Origin: Bordetella genomosp. 7
GTDB taxonomy: Bacteria > Pseudomonadota > Gammaproteobacteria > Burkholderiales > Burkholderiaceae_B
DNA length: 64,000 bases
NCBI RefSeq assembly: GCF_002261265.1
Contig: NZ_NEVK01000003.1
Span: 806,001 to 870,000 of the forward strand
Direction: 5' to 3'
The notes under the pieces were generated by a model, which worked only from the letters and a program-made list of their open reading frames with translations, made no database searches and was not told where the DNA came from. Position 1 is the first letter of the stretch; each line of letters starts with the position of its first letter. Position numbers and translations under genes: made by a program. Below, piece by piece: positions 50,492 through 64,000 of the stretch.

Positions 50492-50570
<79 letters not shown>

Positions 50571-50578
50571 CCATGGTG

Positions 50579-50610
50579 CGGGTTGCGGAATTTTCCGCAA
50601 CCCGTTTTTT
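50579..50610 (+). terminator. Rho-independent terminator of rpoD-tRNA
   Basis: CGGGTTGCGGAA (50579-50590) and TTCCGCAACCCG (50593-50604) form a perfect 12-bp stem followed by six T. Confidence 0.92.
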
Positions 50611-59719: not shown

Positions 59720-60132
<413 letters not shown>

Positions 60133-62287: not shown

Positions 62288-62317
62288 AAATTGCTTGCCG
62301 GCGGTAAAACAGCAGGA

Positions 62318-62342
62318 TTAATATGCGCATTGCGTATATTAA
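62318..62342. promoter_or_regulatory. 25-bp near-perfect palindrome before the aspartate carbamoyltransferase gene
   Basis: TTAATATGCGCA (62318-62329), T, TGCGTATATTAA (62331-62342): 12-bp arms with one mismatch. It ends 18 bases before the ATG, covering the region where a promoter or ribosome-binding site would be. AT-rich in a GC-rich genome. Confidence 0.75.
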
Positions 62343-62360
62343 CCAGCCCCGGGGCCAGCA

Positions 62361-63653
62361 ATGTCCATCTCCCAGCAAGCTTTTCTGCGCGACGCCATGC
62401 GCAGGTTGAACCTTACGCGCGACGTGTTCGCGACGCGCATCGGCGTCAAGCGCCGCGCGCTCGATACCTGGTTGCTGCCTGAAGGGTCGCAGGAATACCG
62501 TGCGATGCCCGACGTGGTGGAACGCTTCGTCAGCGAAATCGTACAAAATGATGCCCTGCTGCAAAAATATACGCAAAGCGTACAAGGGGGGCCGCTGCGG
62601 GAGCGCATTGCCGTAGACGGCAAGCATCAGCTGTTGTCCGTGGACCAGTTCTCGCGGGAATCAGTCGAAGATCTGTTCCGTGTGGCCGACATGATGCAAC
62701 CTATTGCCCGCCGACAGAAGGTGTCGCGGGTGCTCGAAGGGGCAGTGCTGGGCAACCTGTTCTTCGAAGCGAGTACCCGTACCCGTGTCAGCTTCGGCTC
62801 GGCCTTTTGCCGCCTGGGTGGCTCCGTGTGCGACACGACGGGTTTTACCTTCTCGTCCATGGCCAAGGGCGAATCGATCTACGACACGAGCCGCGTGATG
62901 AGCGGCTACGTAGACGTCATGGTGGTGCGCCACCCCGACCAGGGGTCGGTTGCCGAGTTCGCGCGCGCGACGAACATACCAGTGGTCAATGGCGGCGACG
63001 GCCCCGGCGAGCATCCCAGCCAGGCGCTGCTCGACCTGTACACGATCCTTACCGAATTTTCACGGCTCGGAAAGCTGCTGGATGGCGCACACATCGCGGT
63101 GGTCGGCGACCTGAAATACGGCCGCACCGTGCATTCGCTGATCAAGCTGCTGTCACTGTACAAAGGCCTGAAGATCACGCTGATTTCCCCGCCGGGCCTG
63201 GAGATGCCCGCCTATATCATCGAGAAGGCCACACGCAATGGCAATGTGATCGAGCAGAAGAGCTCCCTTGCTGAAGGCCTGCCCGGCGCCGACGTCATTT
63301 ATGCCACGCGGGTGCAGAAAGAGCGCTTTGCCAACGAAGAAAGCGAAGGCTATACGCCGGACTTCCAGATCAGCCGCGCCACCATCGATACGTATTGCGG
63401 GCCCGATACGATCGTCATGCATCCGTTGCCGCGCGACAGCCGCCCCGGCGCCAACGATTTGAGTGTGGACCTGAATGTGGACTCGCGGCTGGCCATTTTC
63501 CGCCAGACAGACAATGGCATTCCCGTCCGTATGGCGATTTTTGCGGTGCTGCTGGGGGTAGAGGGGCTGGTGCAGCATTCAATGCGCGACGTCACCTGGA
63601 AGCATCCGTCGCACGTCGGCCCCGACGATTCGGCCTTTCACGGCCTGGAATGA
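62361..63653 (+). CDS. pyrB: Aspartate carbamoyltransferase with N-terminal HTH-like extension
   Basis: 430 residues, about 120 longer than E. coli PyrB. Carbamoyl-phosphate loop FFEASTRTRVSFGSAF (about 134-149), HPDQGSVAEFA, NGGDGPGEHPSQALLDLYTI and HPLPRDSRPG (about 354-363) show a complete catalytic chain. The first 80 residues are extra; residues 8-60 (LRDAMRRLNLTRDVFATRIG, then VKRRALDTWL) look like an XRE-type helix-turn-helix. A further 30 residues extend the C-terminus. No pyrI regulatory gene is nearby. It commits aspartate to pyrimidine synthesis. The adjacent palindrome suggests autoregulation. Confidence 0.88.
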   Translation: MSISQQAFLRDAMRRLNLTRDVFATRIGVKRRALDTWLLPEGSQEYRAMPDVVERFVSEIVQNDALLQKYTQSVQGGPLRERIAVDGKHQLLSVDQFSRESVEDLFRVADMMQPIARRQKVSRVLEGAVLGNLFFEASTRTRVSFGSAFCRLGGSVCDTTGFTFSSMAKGESIYDTSRVMSGYVDVMVVRHPDQGSVAEFARATNIPVVNGGDGPGEHPSQALLDLYTILTEFSRLGKLLDGAHIAVVGDLKYGRTVHSLIKLLSLYKGLKITLISPPGLEMPAYIIEKATRNGNVIEQKSSLAEGLPGADVIYATRVQKERFANEESEGYTPDFQISRATIDTYCGPDTIVMHPLPRDSRPGANDLSVDLNVDSRLAIFRQTDNGIPVRMAIFAVLLGVEGLVQHSMRDVTWKHPSHVGPDDSAFHGLE

Positions 63654-63697: not shown

Positions 63698-64000
63698 TCA
63701 GATGCGTTTTTCGCCGCCCAGCGCTTGCGTCAGGTCGGCCAGCAGCTTGGCCAGCTCGCCTGTCATGAGCGCCATGTCGGAATCGAATTTCTCATCGTCA
63801 TTTTGCATGACGGTGTCGGATCCTTCCTTGAGTACGTCAAGCGGCGCCACGCGCTTGATATCCAGCGATTCGGTCAGCACGAACGACACGCGGTCGGCCC
63901 ACGTCATGGCCAGCCGGGTGCACTGCTTGCCAGCCTGGATATGGCGCCGTACGTCGTCGGTATCGATGGTGTGCTTCACGTAGCGGATGGCTGCGCGGCT
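63698..64000 (-). CDS. rdgC: Recombination-associated protein RdgC, C-terminal part
   Basis: The last 100 codons of RdgC, running off the window; no start is included. [38 protein letters not shown] and [20 protein letters not shown] are characteristic of the C-terminal segment. RdgC is a nucleoid-associated ring protein that limits RecA. Convergent with pyrB. Confidence 0.92.

Follow-up and report, generated by a model that had tools for sequence, protein, structure and literature searches.

We describe a long form of aspartate carbamoyltransferase (ATCase), encoded by pyrB in a 64,000-nucleotide stretch of Bordetella genomosp. 7 DNA (contig NZ_NEVK01000003.1, positions 806,001 to 870,000; the window), that carries an XRE-like helix-turn-helix (HTH) domain at its N-terminus. 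The fusion protein very probably represses its own gene through a palindromic operator in the promoter, O1, with a site inside the gene, O2, perhaps adding to the repression. A first-pass annotation of the window had suggested a self-repressing enzyme, and comparison across relatives supports that idea: the site appears specific to the gene, and HTH and operator seem to have been lost jointly in four genomes. Two outcomes named there as refuting it did not occur, since the predicted fold of the extension resembles XRE domains and the palindrome is kept by extended homologues.

The 430-residue product matches the NCBIfam profile NF008853 (PRK11891, long aspartate carbamoyltransferase) over residues 1–430 of 430, scoring 841.4 bits where the cut-off is 560. 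The carbamoyltransferase Pfam domains PF02729 and PF00185 lie at residues 90–229 and 242–396, so that about 88 residues precede the catalytic part. Both the N-terminal extension and the intact catalytic motifs reported at first pass are therefore present: aligned with three solved sequences (CAD, a PyrB entry and 2rgw), the protein has STRTR, the mobile-loop K, RHP, HPxQ, GRTVHS, RVQKER and HPLP, and the active-site motif columns are invariant in an alignment of 38 sequences. The closest named loci belong to Bordetella, at 93% protein identity, with Achromobacter next. The 4.13-Mb source genome has two OTCace_N matches, that is, two carbamoyltransferase genes, and only the long pyrB passes the TIGR00670 ATCase cut-off; the other, with an argG-like open reading frame (ORF) behind it by eye, we take as argF. 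Since the long pyrB is the only ATCase gene found in the source genome, it is probably required for pyrimidine synthesis, its enzyme activity being predicted.

The proposed XRE resemblance of the extension lies in its predicted fold more than in its sequence. Structure prediction and fold comparison pointed to an XRE-like DNA-binding fold, with predicted local distance difference test (pLDDT) values below 50 from residue 76 onward. Residues 1–90 of the window protein miss the Pfam gathering cut-offs for HTH_3 (12.2 bits against 23, E 0.2) and HTH_31 (13.3 against 27, E 0.11), and the extension is therefore called XRE-like rather than a Pfam member; HTH_3 is matched at E ≤ 10 by 22 of 38 family members, with a best E of 8.1e-4. 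A profile of the extension returned seven rows to E 10 from the sequences of the PDB (best E 0.0073), and because these were mostly designed proteins the extension is not placed by sequence alone. Its HTH part is within 12 percentage points of the core in identity to the window in 33 of 37 aligned homologues, the exceptions being L217–L220. In the predicted recognition helix W37 is invariant in all 38 aligned sequences and L34 is kept in at least 90%. For the linker that follows, identity to the window is 12–81%, against 76–94% for the core, over the 37 homologues. The NF008853 family already has a database name, and its unusual length has been published; for the role of the extension, no account was found among the matches listed in the open-licence PubMed Central (PMC) literature.

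The palindrome O1, TTAATATGCGCATTGCGTATATTAA, lies exactly where it was first described, with one of its 12 pairs mismatched and 18 bases between it and the ATG. No other 25-mer in the window has one mismatched pair or none, but nine have two and three 24-mers have at most one, so that the palindrome alone is unremarkable in 64 kb and it is the conservation that makes it striking. We saw it upstream of nearly all of 80 named homologues, in differing surroundings. The named homologues and a family sample together gave 163 extended loci; 127 of them differ from one another when 60 nt upstream and 300 nt of gene are compared, and 81 of these 127 are the window and named loci. This set leaves out L217–L220, decayed members that the script did not count as extended, and L228–L233. 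The pattern ATATACGCAnTGCGTATAT scores at least 15/18 within 100 nt upstream in 124 of the 127 distinct loci, the others being L078 (8), L214 (14) and L215 (13), and 0 of 2540 shuffled upstream regions reach that score. In an alignment centred on the site, 18 of the 19 core positions carry 0.82–2.00 bits and the centre position 0.28; conservation continues for four bases leftward (0.64–1.77 bits) and one base rightward (0.69). Beyond the site the highest values are in an A-rich stretch 31–33 bases upstream (0.52–0.70 bits) and at position −19 (0.48), most being below 0.3. O1 takes in the putative −10 hexamer TAATAT, which is a usual location for a repressor; the putative promoter has 8 of 12 consensus bases, and for this reason a promoter scan with a threshold of 9 lists none here. 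An attenuator or other RNA element was considered and rejected: the only Rfam matches over gathering score in the window are two tRNAs, with no family at O1. As a separate observation, second and weaker copies of the site (11–13/18) lie upstream in L010 (−37), L030 (−104), L037 (−38), L059/L063 (−82/−83) and L048 (−133).

The site follows the extension. It was not found upstream at nine loci of unextended core homologues (L091/L223, which are one gene, L092–L096, L221 and L222; 8–11/18), in line with what the first-pass annotation had anticipated. In four genomes of 0.8 Mb (L217–L220), identity of the HTH to the window is down to 28–42% while that of the core is 76–79%, and no upstream site was found; as far as sequence comparison tells, HTH and operator have been lost jointly there and the catalytic core kept. 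Domain and site are both altered in L214–L216, where the HTH is 67–68% and the core 76–77% identical, the recognition region reads GCRRRTLDSWL instead of GVKRRALDTWL, and one half of the site reads TGTGTAT or TGCATAT; the altered site recurs in L228–L233. Two side observations belong here. In L229–L233 (genus g247) a half-site-like CTTTTGTGTATAGGTGA, identical in all five, stands directly before the start codon, in addition to the altered operator some 59 nt upstream. In L078, the same as L213 and from a metagenome-derived relative, the best site match (15/18, ATATTCGCATCGCGTATAG) is at +63, within the HTH coding region.

Within genomes the site is nearly confined to this gene. In the source genome TATRCGCANTGCGTAYA is matched best by O1 (0 mismatches) and second best by O2, inside the same gene (1), and the matches that follow have 2; one 2-mismatch site, C4:305491, lies between two divergent ORFs, by eye presumably an IclR-like regulator and a solute receptor. 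With no mismatch allowed, TRTRCGCNNNGCGYAYA is present in 36 of 51 genomes. In the 35 with an extended gene it lies upstream of the gene in 31, inside it in 21 and at both places in 20; the four without a strict upstream match are G280 (decayed), G299 and G369 (variant sites) and G302 (17/18, one base off). Away from the long pyrB these 35 genomes hold nine matches against seven for the backward control, and a regulon instead of a single target was rejected on this count. The 16 genomes without the extension hold four matches; in G307, G323 and G272 they are away from the ATCase gene, and G338 lacks any ATCase that passes the cut-off.

O2 coincides with the codons of KYTQSVQ, reads ATATACGCAAAGCGTACAA and is centred 246 bp downstream of the centre of O1. 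Most homologous loci carry a match at the same codons (+206): 72 of the 127 distinct loci match all 14 defined positions, and 107 match at least 12. The mean match over the 127 loci is 12.9, where synonymous resampling with family codon usage predicts 10.2, and the synonymous-codon test gives p ≤ 0.01 in 85, p ≤ 0.05 in 96 and p > 0.5 in 7. The distance between the centres of O1 and O2 is 236–277 bp in 106 loci. We take O2 as a real but secondary operator, still a candidate; looping between O1 and O2 is a guess.

The familiar regulators of pyrB are largely missing alongside the fusion. PyrI, the regulatory subunit of class B ATCases, was absent from all 42 genomes searched, the source genome included, in a search that was positive in 7 of 14 control genomes, E. 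coli among them. PyrR is a separate phosphoribosyltransferase-type regulator, and the source genome has no match to its profile, NF003545. In 75 chosen genomes, rather than all, with repeats counted once, PyrR passed the cut-off in 0 of 35 with the fusion (decayed-HTH G280 included) against 37 of 40 without it; it lay below the cut-off in two fusion genomes (G278 and G301), and three genomes (G287, G296 and G312) have neither. PyrR beside a short pyrB is the arrangement in most of the tested relatives that lack the fusion. Within genus g247 the fusion occurs in 6 of 32 genomes (G299, G333, G381, G415, G418 and G432), none with PyrR, and the other 26 all have PyrR, which by gene content is a clean swap inside one genus; the same exclusion was seen in g264 (2 + 2 genomes tested). 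A strict anti-correlation as a general rule was rejected: among 11 fusion genomes of named loci, those of L010, L014, L045 and L078 lack PyrR but all seven Paraburkholderia/Burkholderia sp. carry it. The two ATCases noted for Burkholderia in the available part of PMC4581275 are consistent with fusion and PyrR occurring together there. Wherever both genes were located, in 10 genomes, pyrR immediately precedes a short pyrB in the same orientation. Judged by these gene sets, the fusion replaces the pyrR-pyrB locus in some lineages and coexists with it in others. The NF008853 cut-off was passed in 1 of 274 genomes of a class-wide sample, the source genome only, and in 89 of 121 of the source family; of these 89, G312 lacks the extension and G366 is cut by a contig end.

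In the mechanism that we propose, two HTH domains of the ATCase oligomer would bind the palindrome O1, and its occupancy would block RNA polymerase; we infer repression as the sign because O1 overlaps the putative −10 region. Repression would occur when the enzyme is plentiful or below full load, making it a negative feedback regulator of its own gene, with no further target visible in the genome. O2, which lies within the gene some 240 bp farther downstream, would add to the repression, probably with one oligomer holding both sites. An active site occupied by substrates or by pyrimidine nucleotides may shift the protein between an enzyme and a repressor state, as proline does for PutA. A more elaborate version, which we offer as speculation and think rather unlikely, has ATCase trimers paired via three HTH dimers in the positions of the PyrI dimers; the resulting hexamer would loop O1 to O2, and carbamoyl phosphate and aspartate, or uridine and cytidine triphosphate, at the active sites would open or close the loop, so that enzyme saturation would set transcription.

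Several observations weigh against this account and have to be set beside the alternatives that they favour. Locus L078/L213 retains the HTH (73%) with no upstream site. This would suit a palindrome at which some other transcription factor, encoded elsewhere, acts, the XRE-like extension serving some other purpose, as would the form of O1, a normal repressor-type site to which binding of the HTH-ATCase is something we infer. Such a factor would have to be a dedicated single-target regulator, given off-gene matches at control level, yet by eye no common regulator-like ORF adjoins the gene in the 20 loci compared, and the site tracks the extension and not the enzyme, being unfound at the nine unextended loci and lost where the HTH decays; we consider this explanation improbable. 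The single-sequence HTH scores, which are weak, would fit an extension that was once an HTH and now serves only to keep the oligomer assembled or to tune the enzyme, with the palindrome working through RNA or promoter strength. In other ATCase classes N-terminal or partner segments do serve assembly. We nevertheless give this very little credence: the palindrome is conserved in its sequence itself, beyond pairing, its left-hand portion falls within the putative −10 region and no Rfam family falls on it, while the HTH keeps pace with the core, at most 12 points away, in 33 of 37 homologues and falls in the four without the site.

The doubts about O2 carry more weight. Part of the family has a degenerate copy or none, 55 of the 127 loci falling below 14/14, and helical phasing of the O1–O2 spacing was not found in the 106 loci, which tells against the looping part of our proposal. 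Self-binding may then be real with one operator and no loop, O2 being a coincidence of KYTQS/KYAQS coding. That view is compatible with the core of our proposal and has a substantial chance of being right, though it must account for the rank of O2 as second best site in the source genome, for codons that fit the site better than usage predicts (p ≤ 0.01 in 85 of the 127 loci), and for a linker around O2 that is otherwise poorly conserved. The PyrR distribution is also a weaker independent witness than its numbers suggest, because pyrR adjoins the short pyrB and both travel as one locus; the absence of PyrR may come simply from loss of that locus.

If the long ATCase does repress its own gene, it would join the trigger enzymes, metabolic enzymes that also regulate genes, for which there are precedents in the available parts of PMC8249747 and PMC6245113. 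The likeness to PutA, BirA, NadR, PepA and PyrH lies in this combination of roles, the DNA-binding part here being a prediction; for PutA, a proline dehydrogenase with a DNA-binding domain, the only binding region is the one separating its own gene from putP (PMC8249747, available part). The long ATCase differs in its carbamoyltransferase fold, its XRE-like HTH and its place at a biosynthetic committed step, and the five E. coli trigger enzymes listed in the available part of PMC8249747 do not include ATCase. With the E. coli PyrI/PyrB holoenzyme it shares a homologous catalytic core. It shares a predicted fold and palindromic sites with XRE autorepressors such as Aca1/Aca2 and ImmR, and most XRE regulators are described as autoregulatory (PMC12565409, available part); here, however, the domain forms the N-terminal end of a metabolic enzyme.

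The window protein fits the description of the long Burkholderia ATCase (about 430 residues, HPLP motif) in the available part of PMC4581275, with the difference that in the source genome the long form is the only ATCase found. This 2015 review, as available, left the role of the long ATCase open and raised a catabolic one, and its main text as searched has no match for helix-turn-helix, DNA binding or N-terminal extension. The candidate operator gives a handle on that role; for operator, intragenic copy and self-repressor reading alike, no earlier account was found among the matches listed in the open-licence PMC literature. A trimeric ATCase of about 47 kDa from Burkholderia cepacia has reportedly been studied in thesis work. 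ATCase is the standard case of allosteric feedback at the protein level, and here the same protein seems to extend feedback to the level of the gene, apparently in many genera of one family, without PyrI and mostly without PyrR. Single genera in which the fusion and pyrR-pyrB stand in for each other offer a natural experiment in exchanging regulatory principles.

Table 1. Features of the long pyrB locus, in window coordinates.
Feature	Position	Strand	Basis or remark
HTH-ATCase gene (pyrB, long form, 430 aa)	62361..63653	+	NF008853 profile match, residues 1-430
N-terminal XRE-like helix-turn-helix domain, residues 1-62	62361..62546	+	
Predicted recognition helix, residues 31-37 (RRALDTW)	62451..62471	+	third helix of structure model
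Poorly conserved linker, residues 63-88, containing KYTQSVQ	62547..62624	+	codons of KYTQSVQ form intragenic site
ATCase catalytic core, residues 89-400, active-site motifs present	62625..63560	+	Pfam PF02729/PF00185; alignment with CAD, a PyrB entry, 2rgw
Promoter operator O1 (candidate), 25-bp palindrome	62318..62342	.	footprint across homologues; genome specificity
Putative sigma-70 promoter: TTGCCG (62295-62300), 18-nt spacer, TAATAT (62319-62324) within O1	62295..62324	+	by eye
Intragenic second site O2 (candidate)	62567..62585	.	genome rank; homologue position; synonymous-codon test

The neighbourhood was compared by clustering ORFs of at least 70 aa from ATG within about 2.5 kb across 20 loci, and no regulator-like cluster beside the long pyrB was seen by eye in these. 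Besides pyrB and antisense frames, the clusters comprised a convergent downstream ORF read as RdgC (12 of 20 loci) and two upstream ORFs (seven each). In the window the C-terminal part of an RdgC-type gene (Pfam) occupies 63698–64000 on the minus strand, convergent with pyrB and cut by the window end; the two ORFs upstream of pyrB have no Pfam family match. Farther upstream of the pyrB region a tRNA gene lies at 60056–60129. Another tRNA, at 50492–50567, is followed 12 bases on by a 24-bp inverted repeat (50580–50603) with at most one mismatched pair, perhaps a terminator.
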